This document shows, piece after piece, positions 1,435-52,215 of a stretch of 64,000 nt of DNA (the stretch's first letter is position 1; each line of letters starts with the position of its first letter). The notes beneath the pieces were generated by a model that saw nothing but the letters and a program-made list of their open reading frames with translations, was not told the DNA's origin and made no database searches. This DNA comes from Antedon mediterranea. Lineage: Eukaryota; Echinodermata; Crinoidea; Comatulida; Antedonidae. A program made the translations under genes and the position numbers. Location: assembly GCF_964355755.1 (NCBI RefSeq), contig NC_092676.1:15978288-16042287 (forward strand). Direction: 5' to 3'.

Positions 1435-1860
1435 ATGTTATAGCGCCAGACATTAACTTAAAATGTCTTTAAAGCAGCAGACACAGAAAAACTTAAAATG
1501 TCTTTAGAGTAGGGAAAAACACACTTAAATATAAAATATCTTTAGATTAGATAAGAACACGGAAACATTTAATATGTCTTCAGAAAAGGGACACAATACA
1601 TTTAAAATATCTTTTAAGAGCATAAACACGTTTAAAAATAAAATATCATTAGATTAGATATTTAAAATCTCTAGAGTAGGGACACAGACATGTGCCTGTA
1701 GAGCAGCGACACAGGACATTTGAAATGTCTAGAGTAGGGACACAGACATGTGCCTGTAGATCAGTGACACAGGACATTTAAAATGTCTTTAAGAGTTAGG
1801 GACATAGGCATGTGCCTGTAGAGCAGGAACACAGACACATTGAAAATGTCTATTATAATT
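1435..1860. repeat. degenerate tandem repeat
   Basis: The words 'aaaatgtcttta', 'agagtagggacacagaca' and 'catgtgcctgtagagcag' recur in order with variable spacing. The units are about 30-60 bp. The best-preserved copies are around 1680-1850. This looks like an old, diverged minisatellite with higher-order units. Confidence 0.65.
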
Positions 1861-3821
1861 CTTAGATAATTTCTTAAACATGTAGGCCTACTGTACACAT
1901 TTAATACTGCACATGATCAGACTTTAATCATAGCAATTGCCTCATTATGTTGACATTCCAGTGTAAAAAAAATGTGCAACATAAGGTAAATATTCATATG
2001 TACAGTAGCCTGGAAGTCTACTAGCTTTTAATAATGAAATAAAATATGACATTAAACTGTTGAAATATTATAAGATGATGTATAGCTAAAAATACCCATG
2101 CAAATATACAGTGCATTCAGATTGCCTAAACCATCATTGGAATAAAGTAATAGTTGACAAACTTTATGAAATTTAATCTAATAATAAAAGTAAATGACTG
2201 GAATTACCAAACAAGTTAATAAGAGAGGTCAGAGAATAATTTCGCCAGTGTACAGTAGCATAGCAAAAAGCTATACAAAACAACCTTTTTGCTACACATT
2301 TTTAAAATTGTGTAGCAAAAAATACAATACAAAACTATGTTTCTCGACTCGAAAATCAGTTTTATTAGCAATATTGCTAAACAAAATTTAAAAATGAAAT
2401 TTCCCCCTGGAGGTTAGAACCGGAACATGAGTCTGGTGTAGGTGCAGCACTGATCACAGGAGCAGATTCAGCATGTTGAAATGGGGGGGGGGGGGGAGCG
2501 GGCACCACAGACCAGGTACACTCGCCACAACCTCCACCATGGGGTAAACCTGTGGTCAGAAATGGTACTCTCGCACATAAAAAAAAAAGAAGTGATAAAT
2601 GGCACCTCTAATTGGCTGTACATGTATTGCGCAGAAATCAGATATCAGCAATTGTAATTTGTGTAATCACACAGGTGACGAAACATTTTTGTGTGTTTTG
2701 TGGGAACCACCGATCGTTTGATTGTTTTGATCATTCTTCAAACAGAGTCAGTGTTTTGCATTCAATGCGTACTGTATAGCCTATAGACGCACTCAACAAA
2801 TTGATAAGTTAAAACATTTACTACAATAAATGCATTAATGCTGTACGCGGTTAAGTAGATATTTATACAAAGTTGTGCGGCTATGCCAATCTCCACCCCC
2901 TGCCACCCTTTGAATCCGGCCCTGGATTAGTCTAGAGAGACCATGTGCGAGATAAAATGTTCTGCTTATGGGTATTTGCGTCAAAAACCAGAATCCAAAA
3001 TCAATCAACCATGAACTCTGCCGATCATCATGGCAAAGCTCAGCTTTGATTGGCTTACAGTGAAATCATGGTTTTTGTAGTCGATCTCTCACAGGAATAT
3101 TCACAAAATTCTAATCTAATAGATTTGAATTATAAATGCCTGATATTGAGAAAATAACGTTTTTTAACACTTTTAATAAATATTTCACAGACATGGCATG
3201 CTTGGAACTTGGCGTATGAAAACATCACCGGGCAGGCGTTCAAAGGTTTTTTAGTAAACAAACCCTGTACACGCTGATGATAATTGATAGACGATATTTT
3301 AACAATATATCATTCACATGTTTGATGGTTGGAATGTTTGAAATAATAAATATTAAGGTACTAATAACAATGGACTCAACTCAACAACACTATAAAGTAA
3401 AAACCCATTTAGTAGGCCAGGCCCAGGCTGATTTTTTACACCGAAAATTTGATGATCATTCTGGAGTTGTCCCTGGAAAACTAAGTAATTAATCATTCCT
3501 TATGAGACAACAAAATGGATAATAATGTTATTACACAATTCCAACCACATACAACTTATATTTATTTTAAGCTGCAACATGGTCTTTGTTATAACAACTA
3601 AAATCGGTCTACTGCCATCTTATATGAACAATTAAATAAAACTCTCTCTGAAAATCTGTGTAAAAATGACCAGTGCTTTATTGGAAAATCAAATTGATTG
3701 ATTAAAACACATGAAATAAAACCAGTGTAATGCAACTGATGACTTTATTTGATCATTTTATTTCCTTAAATGATCCAGGGTAAATTAAGGTGAGAGCTTT
3801 GACCTCTAGATCTAAGTATTA
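1861..3821. other. non-coding stretch with a homopolymer G tract
   Basis: No supported gene. A run of 14 G lies at 2483-2496. The short ORFs at 2194-2391 and 3277-3492 are AT-rich and lack family features. Confidence 0.45.
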
Positions 3822-4008
3822 CTTATTTATTTATTTGTTCTTTCTTTAAACTGAAATACACTTTCAATACAAATGTACTGATTTCCAAAGTGGTTCAGTA
3901 AACATATTTACAACAAAAATAAAATATAAAAGAAAAACAAAAAGAAAGAAAACAGATATAAAACTATTTACAATTGTGAAGGCAAAAAGGTTAATACATA
4001 TATGATTT

Positions 4009-4350
4009 CTATAGTGAAGATTTAAAAGTTGCCAAAGACATATGGAGTTCTGATTTTATGTTATTTGGTAGAGAATTCCATAATTTAGTTGATCTATAAA
4101 CAAAAGTTCTTTTACCCTGAGAGTTATTCCATAGCGGAATAGATAAATCATTATTACTTTGGGAGCGAGTGCATTTATTATGGTTATCTACAGTAAATTG
4201 AAATAATATTGTTAAGTATCTTGGAGCTATTTCTTTTAAACATTTAAATAGCATTATAAGAATATTTTCATTCCATTTTTCTGTAAGTCTACTCCATCCA
4301 AGAGTATTTAAGATATCATTAATAGGGGTATACATGTCTACTGATAACAA
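4009..4350 (-). pseudogene. LINE ORF2 C-terminal segment, frameshifted
   Basis: About 113 codons continue the LINE ORF2 after a frameshift at about 4355. Conserved C-terminal words of CR1/L2-type ORF2 are visible: LGWSRLTEKWNENIL, LFKCLKEIAPRYL, HNKCTRSQSNNDL and FVYRSTKLWNSLPNNIK. It has no start of its own and would only be translated as part of ORF2. Confidence 0.85.
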
Positions 4351-4358
4351 TATTCTAC

Positions 4359-7022
4359 CTATAATCGGTTGATTAAAACCTGAAGAGAATCTGAAAAACT
4401 TATGTTACAATTGGACCAAACACAGCAACAATAATCAAATAATGGAATAATTAAAGCATTTGCTAACATTTTTAAAGTATACATAGGAAGATACATCTTA
4501 ATACGACGAATCACACCGATACGTTTAGCTATTTTACAAGACATTTTGTCAATATGTTCCTTCCAATTTAGTTGAGGATCAAACATGACACCTAAATACT
4601 TAAAAGAATCAACTCTTTCAATAGTATCATTATTATGAAGTAAAGTTATATTCTTAAATGTTGCCGTTTTCTGATTTGTGCTGAAAACCATAAGCTTGGT
4701 CTTATTAAGATTTAGTGTGAGTTGATTATGATCAAACCATTCTATAATTTTGTTTAGATTGATATTGAGTTGATTCTGAAGTATTAAAGGGTCAGATGAA
4801 CTACATAAGAGTGTTGTATCATCTGCATACATCACACATTTACATGATAAAAATTCAGGAAGTGAATTTACGTATAAAATAAATAGTAAAGGTCCCAGTA
4901 TTGATCCTTGTGGGACACCAATATTAACATTCATAGTTTCAGATTTTGTTGAATTTATACAAACAACTTGAGATCGTCCACTTAAGTATGATTTAAACCA
5001 GTGAAGTGCAATATCATTTAAGCCATATTTCCTTAATTTGGTAAGTAATATTTCATGGTTAACTGTATCAAATGCTTTCTTCAAGTCAAGAAATAAAGCA
5101 GCAGATGAAATACCTTTATCAAAGTTATCTAAAATATAATCAGTAACATCTAAAAGAGTAGTTTCTGTAGAGTGACCTTTTCTAAAGCCCGATTGGGAGG
5201 GATTTATAAGGTTGTTAGTTCTTAAATACAAGTATAATTGATCATGCACAGCACGTTCTAAGAGTTTTGAAAGTATGGGTAAAACAGAAATTGGGCGGAA
5301 ATTATAAGGGTCTGACATATCCCCATCTTTATATACAGGTGTTACCTTAGCTAGTTTCCATTCATCTGGAAATCTAGAACTGAACATAGAAAGATTACAA
5401 ATATATGAGAGTGAGTCACAAATTATCGGAGCAGCTAGTTTAAGAAGTTTGCAATCAAAGTTATCAACACCCATAGCTTTATTAGTTGACAATTTACATA
5501 ACTGGTTAAAAATGTAATCAGGGGTAAGAAGATCAAATTCAAATTTGTTACCCGCAAAACAATTTTCTGAAGTGTTACTAGTATAATTATTGGAGTTAGT
5601 ATTATTGGAGTTAGTATTATTGGAGTTAGTAAATTGATTTGCTAAAGAACTTCCAATTGAAGTAAAATGAGCATTGAAAACATTGGCTATGTCCTTATCA
5701 TTGGATGTATAGTTTTTATTATTATCTTTATATACATTATTTATACTGGGTTTAGTTTTAGGTATTAATTTATTTATTGTATTCCATAATTTCTTGGGAT
5801 TTTTAGCATTTTCGTTAATAGTATTTGTACAATATTTTCTTTTTAAATTCCTATTTAAATTATTAACTTGATTTCTCAGTTGTTTCGCTTTGTCCCAATC
5901 TACAGGTTCATTAGTTTTGTGAGCTTTCTTATAATAGTAGTCTCTGTCTTTTGTTAATCTTATATAATCAGTGGTTATCCATTCAGGAAGTGATCCTTTC
6001 ACTCTCTTTGTCTTTAAAGGGGCATGCCGATTACATAACTCACCAAATAAGTGTTTCCATAGCAACCAGACAGTGTTAACATTAGAGTAAAGCTTGATTT
6101 GATCCCAGTCAATACATTTTAAATCTTCTATAAATTTGTTTTGGTCAAATTTTTTAAAAGAACGAGAGGTTATAAACTTTGGAGGAATATGTGTTTTTTT
6201 AGTTTTTCGAATTAGATATATTAAGGAGTGATCACTTATTCCATGGCTTGATACTCCTGCTGTTGAAATATTACAATTAGTGACAAAAATCAAATCTATA
6301 ATTGTTTTACTAGTGTTAGTTATTCTTGTAAATTCATTAATTAGTTGGTTAAGATTACTATTTTTAGCTATTTTATTAATTTTTCTTGCGTTAGTATTAT
6401 TATTTATATCTAAGTTAAAGTCTCCCAAGATCACATCATTATATAATGATGTACTTTGTTGGAACATGTTGTCAAGTTCATTTAAATATTCAACTTTAGC
6501 ATTAGGTGGTCTATAAATATTACCTATAAGTAAAGGTTTAGAATATGTTAAATTTTTTTCAATCCAACAAAGAGCTTCAACATTTTCAGATCTCAGCTCT
6601 TGGATTTCTTTAAAGGCAATACCACTTCTAATATAACATAGAACTCCACCGCCAGCTTGAGTATTTGGTCTATCAAGCCTACAAATTTTGTATCCGTCTA
6701 CTAAAATCTCATTGTTATCAATATTGGTGCTTAGCCACGTTTCGGTTATACAAAATATATCATAGTTATATTCATGGAGAAGTGTTTTGACATTGTCTAA
6801 TTTGTTTCTAAGTGATTGTATATTTAAGTGGGCAATTTTAAAGCCCTTTTTACTACTTATTTCATAATTAAAATTGTTAAAGTAATTACAAAAAGGTAGT
6901 TCCATTAAAGCGTTTTGTATAAAACAATTGTCGCACCACCAATTATTAAGTCTGATTGAAGGATTAGGAAAACAAGAAAAATCATAAGATAATAAACAAA
7001 TTTGGCAAGTACTGTAGTACAC
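4359..7022 (-). CDS. LINE ORF2: endonuclease-reverse transcriptase
   Basis: Nicks target DNA and copies the element RNA by target-primed reverse transcription. The frame is open for 887 codons (it starts at a GTG because an in-frame TAA lies just upstream; translation may begin elsewhere). Residues about 6-33 hold CQIC...WWCDNC, a truncated RING/PHD-like zinc motif. The endonuclease (about 55-270) shows LNIQSLRNK, ITETWLS, GDFNLDIN and ISDHSLIYL, the expected catalytic blocks. A linker carries three tandem 15-bp repeats encoding NTNSN. The RT domain (about 520-780) shows LDLKKAFDTVNH, GVPQGSILGPLLF and the catalytic YADD in MYADDTTLL, all intact. The ORF stops at LQVLINRL, and the missing C-terminus follows in another frame at 4009-4350, so one frameshift separates them. 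Confidence 0.93.
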   Translation of the reverse strand: MYYSTCQICLLSYDFSCFPNPSIRLNNWWCDNCFIQNALMELPFCNYFNNFNYEISSKKGFKIAHLNIQSLRNKLDNVKTLLHEYNYDIFCITETWLSTNIDNNEILVDGYKICRLDRPNTQAGGGVLCYIRSGIAFKEIQELRSENVEALCWIEKNLTYSKPLLIGNIYRPPNAKVEYLNELDNMFQQSTSLYNDVILGDFNLDINNNTNARKINKIAKNSNLNQLINEFTRITNTSKTIIDLIFVTNCNISTAGVSSHGISDHSLIYLIRKTKKTHIPPKFITSRSFKKFDQNKFIEDLKCIDWDQIKLYSNVNTVWLLWKHLFGELCNRHAPLKTKRVKGSLPEWITTDYIRLTKDRDYYYKKAHKTNEPVDWDKAKQLRNQVNNLNRNLKRKYCTNTINENAKNPKKLWNTINKLIPKTKPSINNVYKDNNKNYTSNDKDIANVFNAHFTSIGSSLANQFTNSNNTNSNNTNSNNYTSNTSENCFAGNKFEFDLLTPDYIFNQLCKLSTNKAMGVDNFDCKLLKLAAPIICDSLSYICNLSMFSSRFPDEWKLAKVTPVYKDGDMSDPYNFRPISVLPILSKLLERAVHDQLYLYLRTNNLINPSQSGFRKGHSTETTLLDVTDYILDNFDKGISSAALFLDLKKAFDTVNHEILLTKLRKYGLNDIALHWFKSYLSGRSQVVCINSTKSETMNVNIGVPQGSILGPLLFILYVNSLPEFLSCKCVMYADDTTLLCSSSDPLILQNQLNINLNKIIEWFDHNQLTLNLNKTKLMVFSTNQKTATFKNITLLHNNDTIERVDSFKYLGVMFDPQLNWKEHIDKMSCKIAKRIGVIRRIKMYLPMYTLKMLANALIIPLFDYCCCVWSNCNISFSDSLQVLINRL

Positions 7023-7207
7023 ATTAAATTAAGAGTTTGCTTACATTTAGAAGAGCTATTGTTATAATTATATATACTAGTAACAATATTTTTATCAGGT
7101 TTAACATTTGCATAATCCTTAGATAATGGAACAGAAGTATTAAAATTGGTTATATTAGTATTTGCACTTTGTACAGCTGTTCCGGCTTCAACTTCTTCGC
7201 CTACTTT

Positions 7208-7885
7208 TCATTGATCTTTGACATGTTTTGCTTTACAGTATTTCATTTTGTGTCCAAGTTGTTCACAGATATAACAAAACACTGGTTGACCATGACGGCA
7301 ATTACTGCTAATATGTCCGGTTTCGCTGCAAAAATGACATCTAGGTGATTTCATTCTTTGCTGTTTCTTGCTGTTCTTCTGAAGGATTTGGATACTGTTG
7401 TTTATACTCTTGATGAGAGTTGATGTGCCACGTTGGTTCAAGTGTAGGCCATGAGATGTGAAGTTAGACCTAGAACTTTCTTTCAAACCAATGGTATATG
7501 AATGATCGATAAAGTATTTTCCGTACATTTGCTTTAATGAATCATTGAGCTTTTCCACTTGCATGTTGTAGTGGGCATTGTCAAAACGAGGGCATACTGC
7601 CGATACATACACATTTCCACCGGAAACTTTTGTCCACAACTCTGTTACAAGGTCAGTAAAGTCATTCTCTAGGCTTGTAAGATTAATGTCTGGAACAGCA
7701 CAATCATTTGTACCTACATGTATTATGACATTTTCGATACCATTAAAATTTACCTCATCCAACTGCTCATAAACTTGCTTAGTTGTAGCCCCTCTCATTG
7801 TTTTGACAGATGTTTGATGGAGGCCTCTAGTTTTAATATGCTTTAGCATTGAGTCTCCGATGATTAAATTCTTGTTGGTATTTGA
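7208..7885 (-). pseudogene. LINE ORF1 C-terminal part: SGNH/GDSL esterase plus zinc knuckles
   Basis: ORF1 products of CR1/L2-type LINEs bind element RNA. Many carry an SGNH-hydrolase (esterase) domain of uncertain role in retrotransposition. Here the frame upstream of the first ATG (7849) already encodes LIIGDSMLK, the GDS nucleophile block. It is followed by VIIHVGTNDC (block III with the GxND motif) and HGLHLNQRGT (block V with DxxH-like H). The C-terminus has two CCHC knuckles: CHFCSETGHISSNC and CYICEQLGHKMKYC. A -strand frameshift near 7890 separates it from the preceding segment, hence the pseudogene call. It stops at 7208, about 190 bp before ORF2. Confidence 0.88.
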
Positions 7886-8175
7886 TGGCTTTTGATAGTA
7901 ACAGTTTCATTCATGATATCTGTCTTACGTTGTTTAGTTTCATTAGATCTAACCAGCTCACATTTTGCATCGTCTGATTGATCTTGACAGTTATTTTCAC
8001 TGGACTCGGTGTCAAGAATTACGAAATGATTTGTTGGTTGTAAAATTGCATCTTGAGTAGTGGTTGGTGCACTAACATTGGCAACTACATGTTTTGGTTG
8101 AACAAATTCATTGTTTGATTTTTCCTGAAAGCTTCTGAGTTGTATTTCAAGACAGGAGTTTCGTTCGTTCCGCAC
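7864..8175 (-). pseudogene. LINE ORF1 middle segment, frameshifted
   Basis: This low-complexity linker of LINE ORF1 is rich in N, Q, S, T and acidic residues (e.g. FVILDTESSENNCQDQSDD). It sits between the coiled-coil N-terminus and the esterase domain. It overlaps both neighbours in different frames, so one indel lies at each end (near 8170 and near 7890). Confidence 0.7.
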
Positions 8176-8555
8176 AGTTCATTAAAAGCTGATGTCAGCT
8201 GTACAAAGTTTGTTTGTACTTTCTTAAGTTCATAAACTTGTTTTTTAAGGTCAGCAATTCTGTCTTCTTGACTCCTGAGTTTTGATTTCAGTGTAGGTGA
8301 TTCTTCCCATTGACCAGGGGTTTGAGAGGCAGCATTAACTTGTTTAGTTCCAGTTGAGAAGTCTGTAGAATTTGATTTGGGAGTAGGGGTAGATGTGACA
8401 AAGGAGCTTTTAGATTCCAGAACCTTACATACACGTGCAACTTTGAAGTAGAGTAATTCCTTCTGTAACTTGATGCTTTCATCGGTAAAGCCATAAAAAG
8501 ATGGCTGGCAATCACTACTGAGGCTTGTTGTTAGGCTCATGTCTGAGTCATTCAT
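8085..8555 (-). pseudogene. LINE ORF1 N-terminal segment with coiled coil
   Basis: The likely start is the ATG at 8555 (MNDSDMSLTTSL). The upstream in-frame codons to 8636 are hydrophobic and unlike ORF1. A heptad-like stretch, LRSQEDRIADLKKQVYELKK, predicts a short coiled coil, typical of multimerising ORF1 proteins. After ...FNELCGT the reading shifts frame, and the remainder of this frame to 8085 is probably out-of-frame translation. Confidence 0.7.
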
Positions 8556-37799: not shown

Positions 37800-38204
37800 T
37801 TATTTTGCCATCTCAAGATCTTTATATTCAAAGGCCGGGCTAACAGTGCAGCCAAAGAATGTCCATTCTCCACCGGCCACGCATCTTGCACTCTGCCAGT
37901 GATCTGCTGGAATCAACAGCTGGAACTTATGACCTTTCTCTATGTCTGGTCCTAATATATACTGTTTGTAATGGTCTTTTCCATCAGGTTTCAAAATGGA
38001 AACTTCGATAGGGTCCCCAGTATAGTAATGCCAAAGCTCGTCTTTGCCCTTTATTCGATGCAAAGCAATGCTATTATCTTTTGATACCAGGTAATATATA
38101 GCTGTGCTATGCTCAGTCCGGTATGTCTCTCTGTAGTATCCTCCTTCAACATGTACTTGAAGTTCAAAATGTTTTATCATCTCACTTGCTGTTTTCTTAT
38201 TCAT
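37800..38204 (-). CDS. Cupin_5 / DUF985-like cupin protein
   Basis: A 134-residue single-domain cupin. I choose the ATG at 38204 (MNKKTASEMIKHFELQ). The in-frame codons further upstream (to 38330) cross an acceptor-like 'ttaattacag' at about 38227 and read as hydrophobic noise. Family words are EGGYYRETYRTE, STAIYYLV, LHRIKGKDELWHYYTGDP, YILGPDIEKGHKFQLLIPA, HWQSARC and FFGCTVSPAFEY. The H, E and H of HRIKGKDELWH are the usual positions of cupin metal ligands. The length fits the bacterial and yeast members, and the domain is complete. The biochemical role of the family is poorly defined (sugar- or nucleotide-type ligands have been proposed). The upstream 5' UTR is probably spliced. Confidence 0.88.
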   Translation of the reverse strand: MNKKTASEMIKHFELQVHVEGGYYRETYRTEHSTAIYYLVSKDNSIALHRIKGKDELWHYYTGDPIEVSILKPDGKDHYKQYILGPDIEKGHKFQLLIPADHWQSARCVAGGEWTFFGCTVSPAFEYKDLEMAK

Positions 38205-38230
38205 TATCTTGTTTGATATACAACTGTAAT

Positions 38231-38780
38231 TAAAAAAAACGAAATAAACACATTTTACTTGGAATATAATCATGTACCAGAATGTACATGTATAAATGGA
38301 AAAACAACAATTGAGTAACTTTAATATCACCTAAAGTTAATGTTAAGCTTTAGTAGGTACCGGTGATCTTTTAAAAGTGATAAAGACGAAATGCTGAACA
38401 TATACGGGAGAGCGGAGAGGAAGCTCTCCAAACATAGTCACTGATACTTTTCCAAAAACAGTAAAACTGAATAAAACGAAGAACTAAGCTAATAAATATA
38501 TGTAAATTAAATGTACACAATTTAAATTTAAGGTAAATAAAACTAATTTAGATTTTCTAAAAATTAATGAGATCGCAGAAAAAGAAAAACATTTTAATTG
38601 TAATGGGTGGTATGGATTTAGGCCTATATACATTTCAGACCTAAATTGTGATGCACACAGTGATACATTCTAGGAAACTGTCGACAGTTCCTCCTATTGT
38701 GATGTTATAATGTTCTGTCATGTTTACCTATATTTTTGTGAAATTATCTAAAATAACTGGTTTTATATCATTTGCTACAG
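38231..38780. other. no supported gene
   Basis: Upstream flank of the cupin gene. It probably includes the first intron and a 5' non-coding exon, which I cannot place. Confidence 0.35.
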
Positions 38781-41600: not shown

Positions 41601-42475
41601 ATATTGTCTTGCTTGACATATTGATATCACCTTAATGAATAAGTGCCAAAAAACATATCATGGTGTTTGAGAAGATGGTGGGGATTGGCTAGGGTAGTAG
41701 GTTATCAAATTGACCAGAATTGTAATAGGAAATTATCCCTTACCCTAATAGGAAATTGTTTGTTTGGGGTGGGGATGTAGGCCTATCACCATGTACGACC
41801 GAAACTGTACTGGAAATGTTTTTAACTAGGCCTAGTTTTATGAACTTACCGTAAACTACAGTGTAGGCCTACACCTTTCCAAAACTGTGAATACTCGTTG
41901 AAAAAGCGGCTGTCCAATGAAAGTAAAATACAGACAAATAATATGCGTTATGAAAACAATCAAGGGTGGTGGAGTTAACAGGTGATTGAGGTTATATAAC
42001 ACATTAATCACATCGTTGGCCTCGACAATCAGCTGAGGTCAATGTCGTCAGGATAAAATACTGTATTCAGTAATGATAAAAAAGCTCAAGTGGTTGTTCG
42101 AAGTGGTGAAGTTACAATTAATTATAAAAATGGTCGAGGCATACAAAATGTGTTTGAATTAGTCAGAATCAGTCATACTCTTTATAAGGAAGAATGATAT
42201 ATACCGGTGCATATTGGTTTCATGTCATGGAACAGATACTGTCTCTTGTCAGAAATATAATAAAGGTGCCACATGCTAACGGGCTCAGTATATTAGCAAC
42301 ATTAGGAAATGAAAATTCTCAAAAACAAATGTTGACGAAACATTTTATAATTGTTACTAAACTAAAGTGCAACATCTATATTTACTTCTCTGTTATTTTC
42401 CTCACATAATATTTATCAATGTAAAATTGTCAACAAAATGAATGATCGCAACTGGAATCGTGGTTGTAACCTACG
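41601..42475. other. no supported gene
   Basis: AT-rich flank of the transposon-like region. The ORF at 42194-42409 lacks features. Confidence 0.35.
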
Positions 42476-42820
42476 TTACATGTTTTATTTTCGACTTTCA
42501 ATGTAAACGATTATAAAGGCAACATTATATTTCTATGAATATGAAACTATAAAATAGTGTATGTAATCAAACAAAAACATGTAGGCCTATAATAACTTAC
42601 ATATTGTTACATTCACTAGTACATATTGTATTTTATAGTTTATACTTTATTACCATCCATAATAAAATGAGTCGTCAATCAAAGGTTGTTGTTGATTTCT
42701 TGTATGTCCGCATACATTCCTGTCTTAAATTCACATAAAATAACACTCATTATTGTACTCTATTAAATAGTCATAATTATGACAAAACTGGTGTAATCTT
42801 TCTTAGAAAATGTATACTGT

Positions 42821-43642
42821 GGGCCTGTTTCTGCTGCAACTGCTCAAAATACGGTATAAAAATACGGTATAAAATACGGTATTTTTTATACCGTATTTTT
42901 TAGTACCCCGTTTCTGCTAACAATACTTATTGGGTGGTCGTGTTAAATTTCATCTTTTTTACCCAAATTGCCATTTTATTTATTTGATCGATAATTAAAA
43001 GTCGCAATAAAGGAAGTTTTACGTCTCACTTTCAACAGCCTAGCCCTAGTGATAGAGATGTTGTGAGAGCACAGAAACATCGTAATGGGGACAATTAATT
43101 CGTTCCCTCCCCGAGTTATTGTATTTTGCAATGTTGTACTGCTTTCGCAGGCTCTTCAGCTTTGAGTTTACTTGCTTTGGAGACAAGTCTATTCCATACT
43201 CCTGCTTTTTTATTTTAGAAATGTCTTTATAAATGTGGTTGTCCCTTTTATTACCTTTTAGTTGGCCAGACATTTTAGCTTCCCCACACAAATTTATTTA
43301 GTAAAACTGTGACGTCTTCGCTCCACATTTTCGCCGAATATATATATACACGTGTGTAAAACAGCTGACAGTGACAGAAAACAAAAACACGAATGTTGAC
43401 CTTTTGTCATGTAAAAAAAAATATGGTATTTTTTATTGGCAGCAGAAACGGGTACAAAAAATACGGTATAAATTTGTAAATACCGTATTTTATCCACAAA
43501 TTTTGTGGGGAAAATACGGTATACAAAATACGGTATATTTTTTATGAGCGCAGTTTCTGCTGCCAAAAATATACCGTATATATACGGTATTCAAAAAATA
43601 CCGTATAATATACGGTATTTAGTTGGCAGCAGAAACAGGGCC
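42821..43642. mobile_element. ATACGGTAT-family transposon, copy 2
   Basis: It starts GGGCCTGTTTCTGCTGC and ends GCAGCAGAAACAGGGCC. Dense ATACGGTAT/ATACCGTAT words sit inside both ends, and a Myb/SANT-like ORF lies in the middle (43046-43291, minus). It is the best-preserved of the three copies. It is inserted within the array of GTAACGTAAGTTAC motifs, so it is younger than that element. Confidence 0.8.
43046..43291 (-). CDS. Myb/SANT-like DNA-binding protein of a transposon
   Basis: The likely start is the internal ATG at 43273 (MSGQLKGNKRDNHIYKDISK), conserved with the copy at 21858-22043. Residues QEYGIDLSPKQVNSKLKSLR form the Myb/SANT-like helices. It continues with YNNSGRERINCPHYD, absent from copy 1. 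In PIF/Harbinger-type systems such a protein recruits the transposase to the ends. Here the dense ATACGGTAT words near the ends are the obvious candidate binding sites (inference). Confidence 0.6.
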   Translation of the reverse strand: MCGEAKMSGQLKGNKRDNHIYKDISKIKKQEYGIDLSPKQVNSKLKSLRKQYNIAKYNNSGRERINCPHYDVSVLSQHLYH

Positions 43643-44040
43643 TTAGTTACAATTGAGTAACGTAAATTACGTATTCAGTAACGTAAATTACTGAATTGAA
43701 AGATGAATTCGTCATCAAAATAGTTAAATAAAAACAACATTTGTAACTTTTAACAATAAACCTCATTGGTATTTTAGATCATTGCCATCACTTTTGTAGG
43801 CAAACAGATTATATGTTCATTAAATCATCCTTTTTTTATTTTCTTTTAATTCAATGCATATTTTATTAATTATAATTATAAAAACTCCCATATTAAAATG
43901 TAAATTAGTGAGTTTTATAATGCTAGTGTACATACTATTGTTTTGGTTAATATGATTATTATTATTTATTATAATTCTGTGAACTTTACAGTTGCTTGGC
44001 CTAATGCTTATATCAGTCTCAACTTTCTTAGTAACGTAAG

Positions 44041-45983
44041 TTACATTTCCTTTAATGTTTCAACATTTTGATTTATCCGTTCCCTCTCCTGGTCTGAAAT
44101 GTAGAACAATCTACCCGTACAACCCTTTGTTTCAATTTCAACACGGCAGATAACTTTATCAATAGGAATCCATATTTCATCCTTACTATTTGGCCACTGA
44201 AATATGTTCTTGTTAATTCTGCTGCCAGATTTAAAAAAAGACACCAACGCATCTTCATCATCTATATCAACAACTTTGCCGATGTACCATTCTTCATCAT
44301 ATAATGCCGATACCCAATCATCAACATGGAATTGAATTTTGCTGCTTTGCTTGGTATTTTGCTTTTGACGTTTCGTTAAGCTATGGACTATCCATCCGGG
44401 GCACATGTTATCAGCTAGCAGAAGAGGTTTCTTGACACGCTCTACAGTAGCAAGATACATCGCGTACCATCACTTCTCCACTGATGCCTCTCACTGCATG
44501 GAGATTTGTAGTCCCGGGAACAGGTCTTATGTTTGGCCATTTCATTTGTATTTCCGATTCTGCAGCCACACATTCCTCATTAGTAACAAAAAAGTACTCT
44601 GTGCGTGAGGTTTTCTCTTTCTTGACAAGCCCAAGCAAAGAAGTCGTGGGCATCTTGGATCACTGCCGCACCACGTTTTACGGCTTCGTCCGCCAAGCGT
44701 TTTACTGTTCCGCCAATGCCGTCGCATGGCCCTTTTCCATGCCCAGCTTCGAAGTAGTCCCAGCTGGCATTAATATTATGGAAAAGTATGTTGTGATTAG
44801 ATATGATGGAGAATATTGTTTTATTCCGGTATTGTGATGTTGGACTATCGGTCCAATAATGGATAGTCTTTAATTCTGGCAAGATCCCTCTCAATTTTGG
44901 CACCAGCTTCTTTAAAATTGCAAACACAGTAGAAGCGTTGTGTGCGCGGGTGTCTGAAACCGCTACCATGCTATGATGCTTAATTTCGCCATCATGAAAG
45001 TAAGCAACTATAGGGTGTAAAGTAACACCGGTCTGATTCCAGTAGGCGCTTTGCACTTCTTCCATCGGCACACATGTGTAATTCTGAGAAAAATCCATAT
45101 GTATGACGCATTCTCCTTCTTGCAGGTTTTCTTTACACTCTCTTATAGCAGTGTATTGTGCTGTAACCCGTTGTGCATGTTTTCGGAAATCAATAGTTGT
45201 AGTTACAAATAAGTCTGCAAATGTGCTTTTGTCGACTCTTTGTTGAACAAGTTTAGTTTTCTTCTTACCGAAATTGTCCGGGACACGTTTCCATTCTTCA
45301 TACTGGATCTCTTGATCTGGTATACGCTTGGCAAGATCAGATATCTGTGTGTCGGTGATTGATTTGATTGCTTCATCGGGGCTTGTGATTGTGATCACAC
45401 CTAGAGATTTTAATACCTTTAACTGAAGGGCAAAGTTCTGATGTTTTAGGCAAAGACTTGTGTTTCTTGCTGTGAATTTGACAAGTTTAATATTAGCATT
45501 TCTTTGTCGGATTTTCTTAAACGAGGAAAAAGAAACCTTCCGTTGCTCGGGATTTTCACTTTTGTACTTGGCAAACAAGTTCATCATGTAATCATTGAGG
45601 TATCTTATCTGGCGTTTTTCTTTGGTAGAAGATGTTTTGCAGGCATCTCGTTTTCCTGGCATCATCCTGGAGTTGTCATCTCTTTCCATGAAGCCTAATA
45701 CTTCATTATAAAGAACTCCCCACCCCTTTTCTACATACTTCGCAGCTGTGATTCTTTGCTTTTTCGTCTTGGATAGGTTACGTTGACCAAGGCCCGACTC
45801 CATTGAAACACGCGCGATTAACCTGTATTTCTTGATTATCTTTCCAGATAGAACATTGCTAATCATTCTTCTGGCCTTCTGCCCTTGATTTATCTCTGTG
45901 CTCTCTCTTATTTCATCAAGCAGTGCATGTGAAAGCAGGAGTTGTTTTTTTCAACCCTTTGGGTACTGATCTTGGTGACATAC
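44041..45983 (-). pseudogene. DDE-like transposon protein, exon 2, with Tudor/Agenet-like tail
   Basis: Exon 2 starts after the acceptor 'ccaattttctag' (exon start 45983). A first frameshift at an A7 run (about 45950) leads into the long frame ending at 44580. It contains SLCLKHQNFALQLKVLKSLG, then the core with VIHMDFSQNYTC (first acidic residue), IHYWTDSPTSQYRNK (second), and WDYFEAGHGKGPCDGIGGTV with a conserved HGKG-x2-DG-x-GG signature. The continuation (EYFFVTNEECVAAESE..., DVSCYCRAC) is at 44653-44411 in another frame. The last part (44424-44041) has VDDWVSALYDEEWYIGKVVD and FQWPNSKDEIWIP, a Tudor/Agenet-like barrel. Three indels in exon 2, all in A-rich runs, mean decay or assembly error. 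I recognise this type only as DDE-like mobile-element proteins of unsettled family. Confidence 0.7.
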
Positions 45984-46267
45984 CTAGAAAATTGGAAATT
46001 ACATCAATACTAAATTAAGTACGGTTTAGAATATTTAAATATTTTCTCAATTGATATGTCCAGGAAGATAATGGTTTAAGCGGCATGTAATGGGCAGAAA
46101 AAGAAAATACGTATATTCACATCACCATACACGACATGGAACAAGTTATCATTTATAAGGCCTTGAGTACATTTTGTGGATATTTGCTCTATATTATAAA
46201 TAGCCAATATTGTCATTATTAATAATAATTATGCGTGAATAAAACAGTACATTCATTCGTGACCTAC

Positions 46268-46836
46268 CTGCATTTCGTAAATCCTGATTTGCTTCGATCT
46301 TGGAGAGTCAGTACTACTCATGGACGAGTCATGACTGGTAGATGGGATGCAATTCTTATTTACTTTCTTCAGAGCTCTTTCATAGCGCTTGTTTATGGTT
46401 TTTTTTTTTGTCTGGTCATTTTCTGTAACTCCAGATTTAATTTTTCGATGCGACGATGGGCTCGACTTAGTGCTCTGCCAACACGTTTTCGAGTAGAAAT
46501 ACGTCTCTTAAACGACATCTTGATGCGTAGAGGAGAAGTTGGTGAAACCACATCGGAAGATATGGCTGAATCATCATTACTACTACTAGGTTCGTCAGCT
46601 TCTTCTGGGTGTTGTACTTGTAGTTGGGCTTGAACTTGCTTCACGTACCTTCGATGTTTCTGTACTCTTCTTTTCACCGTCGCTCTCCGTGCATTTCTAT
46701 CTTTTGTTGTAAGTTCTGCTGACGGAACATAGTATTTCATTACACGTCTTGCTTCTGCTTGCAAGTACTCTGCTCCTCGCTTCTCTTTTTGTCGTTCCCG
46801 ATACGCTGCCTGAATCTCGGCTCGTGACTTTACCAT
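46268..46836 (-). pseudogene. DDE-like transposon protein, exon 1 (basic, coiled coil)
   Basis: ATG at 46836 (MVKSRAEIQAAYRERQKEKR) opens a very basic region with AAYRERQKEKRGAEYLQAEA, an N-terminal pattern common in transposon-encoded DNA-binding proteins. A Ser/Asp-rich linker (SSSNDDSAISSD) and a basic coiled coil (RVGRALSRAHRRIEKLNLEL) follow. An A11 run at about 46402-46412 shifts the frame. Beyond it the frame continues (KNCIPSTSHDSSMSSTDSPR) to a donor CAG|GTAGGT (exon end 46268). The 284-bp intron to 45983 is GT-AG and its splice keeps the frame. Likely role: specific DNA binding and multimerisation of the transposase (inference). Confidence 0.65.
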
Positions 46837-47368
46837 TATCACCAGTGTCACCTAGTGTTTAACAAAATGTATTAGTATTAAATCAAAATAAACAAATATT
46901 AAATTATATTTTTACATTTTAAATAACCATAATGTAAAAAAATACATTGACTTTGTATGTAGTAAATTATGTAACTTACGTTACCATGAACAATACTATT
47001 AATACTTGTGAGTATCGATATTACAAAGACACAAGATGTATCCAGGTACATGACATACGTTTGACAATGAATATTCATAAACATATATACACAGATATTA
47101 TCTTAATATCACTATGTTCGGTAATGTTACAACAACATAGACATACAACATCAATGTGAAACTTACGTTACCATAGTATCAAGGGCAAAGAAACTTCCCA
47201 TAAAATAACCCTAAATAAAATCAACTCCGGTTGGAGGTAATGTTCATTATTGCCTGTATAATATAACTTAAATTATTTGAATATACTGAGTAGAAAAAAA
47301 ACAAGACGTCTTAGAAATGAGGTATATAAAATGGTAACCTACGTTACATGTAGTGTAATTTACGTTAC

Positions 47369-47716
47369 TTTGTTGCCTATGCTAGCTTACTAGTGTAAAT
47401 TGTACAATGTAATAACATACTTGCATATCTGTCTAATTTCCTAAATTATAAACATTAGGAAAGTTGTTCTAAATGATCTTTAGTGAATTAAGCATTTGAA
47501 TACTTACTAAAATATACTCGAAAATCTGATATATGACGAATAAACTATGAAATTGTGAAAACGTATTTATAAAAACGTGGTCAAAATTGCCGCTGTCTGC
47601 CGAATCACGTGGTTAAAACTTTTTATTGTGTCAGAGGGCGTTTTCTTGATCATAAGAATATCTGTATTCCTTAGAAATGTCCACAATATTAAAACTCATC
47701 AGTAACAATATATATG
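47369..47716. other. centre of the mirrored motif array, no gene
   Basis: This segment separates the minus-oriented motif copies (46971-47368) from the plus-oriented ones (47717-48086). AT-rich, nothing else recognised. Confidence 0.35.
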
Positions 47717-48086
47717 GTAACGTAAGTTACCATAACGTAAATTTCAAATGAACTTCAAAGGCTCAAATAATTAAATCTTAAAACAACAACAAAATAATCA
47801 GTTTAAAATTAAACTTGACGTAACTAATCTTATAAATTATTATAACATGTGTGTGCACAAACCGGATCCTAAGAAGAAATGGGGTAACGTAGGTTACATC
47901 GCTTAACCAATCGTTTTTCATTAACACTTTCCAGGCAATTTTATAACGTATTTACATTATATTTCATCCGCGCAAGCAATATAATCGTTATCAAGAGTAC
48001 AAATCACATAATACGAAGAAAAACACTCTTATAGGTAATTATTAATTGATATTTAATGCATTTTTAAAGTCTGTAACGTAAGTTAC

Positions 48087-48674
48087 GTCATTTGTGCGAC
48101 ATATTTAATTGAAGAATTTTTAAAAATAAAACTAATTTTTTGTCAAAATGTCACTTACATGCGTTAAACGTATAGGTAAGGCTCCAAAATATACAGTATT
48201 TACAATGATAAATGGGATTATATTTAATTTTTACACTAGAGAATATTATGAAATTGGCCGGTGACAGGCGGTTTTGTGTCATATCATGAAGTTTAAAGTG
48301 ACATTATTTTTTAAGGGCAAGGATTTTCAAAATAAAACTTGGCCAATACAAAGAATAACGTTTCCTGTACCGTCATAACGCTTTAAAACACACTTTTAGT
48401 GCATAGTTTTATATATATAACACAGTAATTATAGGCGACATTGGTTTTTCATATTCGTGTTGGTATAGTGAGCCTGAGCGTGGTAGATATTAGAGATATA
48501 CCTTGGTGTTTTTTATTTCGAGATAAATAAAAACTTGTTAACATTTGGTTTGGTATGTTTGTTAAAAAGAGTGTGTAAATTATGTATGATTTTCAAAAAA
48601 CCTATCATGCTTTATGCTTAAATTAAAAGTGTTCTAGTATGGAACGCCTCCTCTGCCTTCAGTTCACATTTACC
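48087..48674. other. no supported gene
   Basis: AT-rich stretch between the last GTAACGTAAGTTAC motif and the 21-bp minisatellite. Confidence 0.4.
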
Positions 48675-49125
48675 ATGCAGTACACACCAATCGTCATGCA
48701 GTACACACCAATCGTCATGCAGTACACACCAAACATAATGCAGTACACACCAAACATAATGCAGTACACACCAAACATAATGCAGTACACACCAATCGTC
48801 ATGCAGTACACACCAAACATAATGCAGTACACACCAAACATCATGCAGTACACACCAATCATCATGCAGTACACACCAAACATAATGCAGTACACACCAA
48901 TCGTCATGCAGTACACACCAATCGTCATGCAGTACACACCAAACATAATGCAGTACACACCAATCGTCATGCAGTACACACCAAACATAATGCAGTACAC
49001 ACCAATCGTCATGCAGTACACACCAAACATCATGCAGTACACACCAAACATAATGCAGTACACACCAATCGTCATGCAGTACACACAATGGTCATGCAGT
49101 ACACACCAATCGTCATGCAGTACAG
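48675..49125. repeat. 21-bp minisatellite, about 21 copies
   Basis: Units of ATGCAGTACACACCA plus a variable six-base end (ATCGTC, AACATAA-type, AACATCA-type, ATCATC). The period is a multiple of three, so long ORFs appear on both strands (e.g. repeated QYTPNIM or CVLHDVW), but these have no other coding evidence. One unit near 49080 is a base shorter. Confidence 0.96.
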
Positions 49126-51570: not shown

Positions 51571-52215
51571 TCACAATGGTCCAATGACAGAACCTTGTGG
51601 CACCCCACAAGTGATTTCCTCCTCCGATGAAACACAGTTACCCAAAGAAACATATTGTTTCCTATGTTTTAGGTAACTTGTAAACCATTCTAAAGCAATA
51701 CCTCTAATACCATTGTTATGTAATTTACTAATAAGAATCTTATGATTAATAACGTCGAATGCTTTAGATAAGTCAACAAAGACTGATAACAAAAATTCTC
51801 TTTGTTCAAAAGAAGAAGTTACATTGTTAACAAAACCAATAATCGCATGAGATGTAGAATGATTTTTACGGAAACCATATTGATGTGTAAAAAGAATATT
51901 ATAGCAGTCAAGAAAGTCATAAAGACGCACGTACATTAAATTTTCTGTTATTTTTGAGAAAACACTAAGTAAAGAAATTCGTCTATAATTTGAAAGTATA
52001 TCTTTGCTGCCTTTTTTAGAAGCAGGTATAACTTTGGCGAGCTTCAAATAATTTGGAAAATTGCCAGTCAAAAAAGAAGAGTTAATAGAAAAGGGTAAAT
52101 GTTTGACATTGTAAGGGGAAGCTATTTTAATAATACGTGACGTAATTTTGTCATGACCACCACCTTTAGTGGAATCTAAATCATTAATTGTTTGTAAAAC
52201 TTTATATTCGGTCAC
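51571..52215 (-). pseudogene. LINE ORF2 reverse-transcriptase domain, N-terminal part
   Basis: 214 open codons include GGHDKITSRIIKIASP, LAKVIPASKKGSKDILSNYR, VFSKITENLMYVRLYDFL, HQYGFRKNHSTSHAI, FVDLSKAFDVINHKILISKL (catalytic block A intact) and ITCGVPQGSVIGPL, where a stop follows. The class is jockey/CR1-like by these words. Confidence 0.85.

Follow-up and report, generated by a model that had tools for sequence, protein, structure and literature searches.

Among cut-and-paste DNA transposons, the Sola superfamily, reportedly described by Bao et al. in 2009, is defined by a DDD transposase and a 4-bp target site duplication (TSD), and hAT elements duplicate 8 bp. Published descriptions give a mean length of 5445 bp for Sola1 in a curated bivalve set (PMC10294476) and 4-bp TSDs for Sola2 elements (PMC3627910). 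CACTA (En/Spm) elements carry inside both ends a family-specific subterminal motif bound by the element-encoded TNPA, and co-evolution has been proposed (PMC2613891); in the hAT element Hermes, short subterminal sites, one pair of them quasi-palindromic, are bound by the N-terminal BED domain of the transposase (PMC10368747); P elements have internal sites distinct from the terminal inverted repeat (TIR), one 10-bp site per end, and an 8-bp TSD (PMC7776569); Kolobok and piggyBac duplicate TTAA (PMC9587614). Here, we analysed a 64,000-nucleotide stretch of the crinoid Antedon mediterranea (contig NC_092676.1 of assembly GCF_964355755.1, positions 15,978,288 to 16,042,287; hereafter the window), in which an initial annotation had noticed a DDE-like gene embedded in a mirrored array of a 14-bp interrupted palindrome. 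The locus is a copy of a 5.4-kb Sola-like cut-and-paste DNA transposon, here called family A, and the palindromes are probably an internal cis-acting array bound by the element's own transposase.

The ends of family A (GGCTCGGGCTCA.../...GTGAGCCTGAGCC) are flanked by perfect 4-bp TSDs in 10 of the 12 two-ended copies (TGTT, TGTA, TTTA, TATT, TATA, TGTA, TACA, ATAT, TACT and TTGA, read by eye), L016 and L025 being counted as the two ends of a single insert-broken copy that is among the ten. One mismatch was seen in L019 and no TSD in the window copy; L017 is a truncated piece, and copy L014, 5.37 kb long, differs in its first base from the GGCTCGGGCTCAG start. The TIRs and target duplications emerged from an alignment of genomic copies that the initial annotation had proposed as a check. 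In the 354-Mb genome, the transposase of the window has six further near-complete matches (97-98% identity), besides shorter and more distant ones; family A copies are 97-99% alike, and the family has presumably moved recently. The window copy itself is dead, because it is frameshifted, has no target duplication, shows altered outermost bases and contains a nested insert.

Contrary to the initial annotation, which could assign the gene to no named superfamily, it can be placed in the Sola-like group by features (DDD transposase, 4-bp TSD and a length close to the Sola1 mean) rather than by comparison with Sola proteins. Membership in CACTA (En/Spm), with its CACTA termini and 2-3-bp TSD, was rejected on the GGCTC... 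ends and 4-bp TSD of family A, membership in hAT on the TSD length, and membership in Kolobok or piggyBac on the varied TSDs listed above, none of which is TTAA. Family A resembles CACTA elements in having a family-specific repeated motif inside both ends; it differs in superfamily and in having few sites over about 1 kb per arm, with a ruler of about 187 bp (see later). The likeness to Hermes lies in short sites inside the ends, whereas every family A site forms an interrupted palindrome on its own, Pfam showed no BED domain and the TSD has 4 bp. P elements likewise have internal sites apart from the TIR, but differ in TSD length and from the six to eleven sites of the family arrays.

A search of the window with the pattern GTAACNTANNTTAC gave 17 strand-matches against a shuffle expectation of 0.09, every one inside 42466-48086. 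With a relaxed pattern, 11 sites were obtained, each a 14-bp interrupted palindrome, with starts from 42466 to 48073 (Table 1). The annotation of at least eleven copies within 5.6 kb and the absence of the motif from the other 58 kb were thereby confirmed, and we obtained the same order when orientation was read from the palindrome centre: - + + + [gene] - - - - + + +. The observation that one site contains the gene's own stop codon also holds, the stop of the C-terminal frame lying at 44041-44043 on the minus strand, inside site 4. The left limit, by contrast, had been set too far right at 42476, as the cluster starts at 42466 and the element is wider still. One left-arm distance in the window copy is inflated by the nested insert, whose open reading frame encodes a Myb/SANT domain (PF13837, E 2.2e-10, Pfam). 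This insert is a second transposon with an internal palindrome cluster: it holds 12 copies of ATACCGTAT in about 0.8 kb between its inverted ends.

Table 1. Features of the family A copy, in window coordinates
Feature	Coordinates	Strand	Remarks
Family A element copy, interrupted by nested insert	42276..48480	-	alignment to other copies from 42280 to about 48480; outermost bases altered, no TSD
Left TIR	42280..42300	+	CGGGCTCAGTATATTAGC...; most other copies start GGCTCGGGCTCAG
Array site 1	42466..42479	-	GTAACCTACGTTAC
Nested PIF/Harbinger-type insert	42821..43642 (about)	.	ends GGGCCTGTTTCTGCTGC; not at this place in L014; putative class, from domain and ends
Array site 2	43657..43670	+	GTAACGTAAATTAC
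Array site 3	43678..43691	+	GTAACGTAAATTAC; 21 bp after site 2
Array site 4	44031..44044	+	GTAACGTAAGTTAC; includes stop codon of transposase frame
C-terminal part of same protein, other frame (frameshifted in window copy)	44041..44460	-	
Transposase reading frame, 428 aa	44580..45866	-	Asp258, Asp340, Asp382 invariant in alignment; frame lost near end in window copy
Probable first exon	46393..46851	-	basic N-terminal part; candidate DNA-binding part
Array site 5	46971..46984	-	GTAACTTACGTTAC; upstream of exon 1
Array site 6	47158..47171	-	GAAACTTACGTTAC, variant; found with relaxed pattern
Array site 7	47334..47347	-	GTAACCTACGTTAC
Array site 8	47355..47368	-	GTAATTTACGTTAC; 21 bp after site 7
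Array site 9	47717..47730	+	GTAACGTAAGTTAC
Array site 10	47884..47897	+	GTAACGTAGGTTAC
Array site 11	48073..48086	+	GTAACGTAAGTTAC
Right TIR	48458..48480	-	other copies end ...GTGAGCCTGAGCC

Genome-wide, the pattern GTAACGTARRTTAC has 133 matches against 32 for the reversed control; among the first 100 listed of the 133, 94 fall in ten family A copies and 6 are isolated. The initial annotation had asked whether the motif clusters near homologues of the gene or is evenly distributed, and whether other copies lack it: the motif is unevenly spread and clusters at copies of this gene, and copies that retain the flanks retain the sites. In 14 aligned rows (13 copies), all aligned sites are identical bar one base in L025, and six deletion derivatives without the catalytic core (L019-L024) retain 11 of 11 sites. 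Variable columns number 1 of 154 in the sites and 137 of 2724 in other non-coding sequence, about eightfold less (with approximate coding limits; p 0.003 for substitutions in 20,000 random placements, a value that is only approximate because the rows share ancestry). The sites are conserved even though they contain 14 CpG. The array belongs to the element itself.

This conservation argues against the sites being functionless remnants of ancient long terminal repeats or of tandem duplications, and so does the unlikeness of the site flanks within one element (mean identity about 0.29-0.43). Such an origin, which we regard as highly improbable, would agree with the 520-bp TIRs that a relative, family D (L027), carries in place of an array, and with the partly metric mirror of the two arms. 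In L014, the left sites start at 0, 359, 380 and 737, and the inverted right sites at 0, 360, 381, (557) and 746, the right arm being read inward from the third outermost site in a register picked after the sites were seen, in which the two outermost right sites have no counterpart. The left arm and the inverted right arm align in register somewhat above shuffles (score 4.5 versus a mean of -27.8, sd 8.4, 20 shuffles).

The transposase frame of the window is open over 655 aa in L013, L014 and L015 and over 651 aa in L018, and that of exon 1 (218 aa, stop to stop) is open in L014, L015, L018 and L025. The three Asp and an HGKxxxDGIGG block are invariant in an alignment of A, B, C, D and L028, which are five separate families; the three Asp were also found by eye in families F and S, and they are putatively catalytic. 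No family scored above the cut-off for the transposase among Pfam profiles, no convincing match was found among PDB sequences, and phages and viral contigs held no relative. Of the 'transposase with its multi-site recognition array' first proposed, what stands is a DDD transposase-like gene in a multi-copy element with TIRs and a 4-bp TSD, with motif clusters at the gene copies; recognition by the transposase we infer.

Sixteen further loci were taken around distant matches. In 14 of them and in L014, the sequence up to 3.5 kb from the gene was scanned for 13-mers that recur with at most one mismatch; L033 and L034 were scanned with 9-mers only. A both-sided array ranked top in L014 (11 sites, at positions up to 3004 and from 5924 onwards, flanking the frame 3004-4968 and exon 1), in L029 of family B (TGTAATGCGAGTGAC, 8 sites), in L031 and L032 of family C (GTAATTCCGTCAC, 6 sites each), in L037 of family E (GTAACTCGCGTTAC, 6 sites) and in L036 of family F (TGTACGTCCGACAC, 6 sites); in L030, a second B copy, an array of 5 sites ranked under a CTAGGCCTA repeat (6). 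The motifs, different but alike, are GTAATGCGAGTGAC in B, GTAATTCCGTCAC in C, GTAACGCGAGTTAC in E, GTACGTCCGACAC in F and GTACGTCCAACAC in S, a family of another organism, and a seventh motif, GTTACGAACATCA, is one-sided in L041. The B/E pattern matches 144 times genome-wide, against 3 for the control. Family S is represented by L042, the sole relative found outside this genome, which has a 705-aa open frame and eight sites of the TACGTCCAACAC motif, four per side. The last right site of B, C, F and S stops 12-13 bp short of the right end, adjoining the TIR.

The motif differs between families of one and the same genome, and in four families the last site adjoins the TIR, which makes the element's own protein the likeliest binder. 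A dimeric DNA-binding part of the transposase would probably bind each GTAAY-(N3-4)-RTNAC-type site, and the bound sites of both arms would bring the ends together for excision. They may additionally damp the element's promoter, and the 'self-regulating locus' of the initial annotation could be such an extra role of the array. That the sites serve mainly transcription, an element protein repressing or activating its own transposase promoter with no direct role in transposition, seems improbable to us: 7 of the 11 sites do lie on the promoter side, and site 5 precedes the first ATG of exon 1 by about 135 bp (by eye), but the sites flank the gene on both sides in A, B, C, E, F and S, adjoin the TIR as just described and are all retained in the six derivatives without a working gene. 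That a protein of the host, be it a transcription factor or a chromatin protein, binds the sites is very improbable, since a single host protein would need a single motif, whereas the motif varies by family in one genome and clusters at the elements; a TTACGT-like core that may resemble bZIP sites is the point in its favour.

Several results weigh against the preferred reading, an array bound by the element's own transposase. The 13-mer scan revealed no array in D (L027), L028 or L039, which have the same kind of transposase, or in the 9.2 kb of L038 that were covered. Genome-wide, the C/F pattern is weakly above its control (61 versus 43) and the L041 motif shows no excess (16 versus 14), clusters being present in both cases. 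In family A, the outermost sites are 190 and 394 bp inside the element, away from the TIRs, and the E frame is without the second Asp (by eye). A test for a DNA-binding domain common to A and B/C/F gave no support, as no similarity was detected between the N-terminal exon of A and the N-terminal domain of B/C/F (rank 388 of 2001 versus shuffles). Finally, structure models were poor (mean pLDDT 43 for the window frame and 35 for L042, from a two-row alignment) and left the RNase H fold unconfirmed; in these poor models, the predicted order of strand-Asp, strands, helix, strand-Asp and Asp-helix agrees with that fold by eye.

An unrooted tree of 11 rows separates A, L040, D, L028 and L039 from C, B, E, F, L035 and S; no frame was obtained from L038 and L041, A and L040 form long branches, and the L040 row is only 32% filled. 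Because A stands opposite C, B, E, F and S, the two halves of the tree both contain arrays, which either are old and were lost or arose twice. Perfect 4-bp TSDs were found in L029 (ATAT), L031 (TCTT), L027 (CATG), L033 (CAGT) and L036 (AACT), one mismatch in L034 and L045, and none was seen in L042. L035 was rejected as an array-less family, as the tree and the places of the F motif make it an F copy with a large insertion. An array beside L040 was not attributed to the L040 gene; it is part of a separate element family, H, whose motif GTCATTTCCGTCAC has 75 genome matches against 3 for the control, mostly in inverted pairs 840-970 bp apart. About 31 inverted pairs of GTCATTTCCGTCAC were counted in L043, L044 and other places of the genome.

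The array layout itself was examined at one locus per family (L014, L029, L032, L037, L036 and L042 for A, B, C, E, F and S, respectively), which together give 33 distances between neighbouring sites. Twelve of these are of 14-31 bp, 17 of 152-197 bp and 4 of 307-360 bp, in bands defined on the very distances they describe. In the six loci, the clustered distances show a period of 189 (R 0.83, p 3e-4; best of 3000 random sets 0.71), and family A alone one of 187 (R 0.97, p 6e-4); the families are not independent draws, because they are homologous. The right arms read 15/197/178 in B, 14/196/179 in C, 21/192/167 in F and 21/188/169 in S, and in the same order 360, 359, 360 and 364 bp separate the left end from the first left site, the left end of F being an imperfect match backed by its TSD. 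To judge from these sequences, the spacing has stayed across families while the motif changed.

Copies outside the set agree with the bands to varying degrees. In L030, all distances (31, 16 and 165) fall within them. In L031, a second C copy that is a duplicate stretch and shares its flanks with L032, two of the four (165, 686, 108 and 171) are outside, which we read as one insertion and one deletion. For GTTACGAACATCA, 4 of 7 left-side distances are in the bands in L041 (216, 51 and 64 outside) and 5 of 8 in L046 (41, 51 and 227 outside). Family H gives 4 of 7 in L043 (42, 134 and 362 outside), 6 of 8 in L044 (32 and 134 outside) and 4 of 4 in the copy beside L040.

The boldest reading, drawn from the distances themselves, is a chromatin-scale ruler: sites would stand one or two nucleosome lengths apart or close together, in a layout kept across families and two organisms, while the 13-14-bp motif at the sites changed jointly, presumably along with the transposase. 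The latter would then assemble on an invariant series of linker positions along the nucleosome-wrapped element, and selection would be stricter on spacing than on motif spelling. We hold this reading tentatively and consider it rather unlikely. Base composition gives it no support, because the 17 intervals of 150-200 bp have no G+C-rich centre (mean G+C 23% in the middle versus 27% at the edges). The partial fit of L031 and of the motif families found later, and the lack of arrays in D, L028 and L039 in the scan, also speak against it.

In the literature searched, with most subscription papers and Repbase outside the search, neither a spaced palindrome array such as that of family A in Sola elements nor a spacing ruler in transposon ends was found described, which is weak evidence of absence. 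Subterminal repeats are already known in hAT and CACTA elements; in our judgement, little is understood of how a transposase recognizes ends dispersed along a kilobase of chromatin. One genome that holds several families of similar layout and different motifs constitutes a natural experiment on the co-evolution of transposases and their sites. The spacing gives a clear testable prediction, and the system is well suited to testing how transposases recognize their DNA.

A number of further observations were made on the relatives and the surroundings of the element. The L042 record is a 4-kb sequence of 34.5% G+C, filed as part of a bacterial metagenome-assembled genome and carrying a relative of an animal-type transposon; it is probably a eukaryotic contaminant. 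L027, L033 and L034 represent a related family with 520-bp inverted repeats starting GGGTCATTCCA; a transposase fragment of about 100 residues has matches at tens of places in the genome, of which L033 and L034 are the two looked at. In L026, a disrupted copy of the D frame sits among abundant Harbinger-like repeats, several of which, with ends GGCCCTGTTCAGACC and a repeated TTAGCGTACGACG motif, occupy positions 1827-8253 of that locus. In the window, a gene for a Cupin_5/DUF985 protein (PF06172, E 1.2e-38) lies at 37800-38330, a 21-bp minisatellite of 21.5 copies (CATGCAGTACACACCAATCAT) at 48674-49124, shortly past the right end of the element, and a fragment resembling, by eye, the reverse transcriptase of a non-LTR element at 51571-52215.

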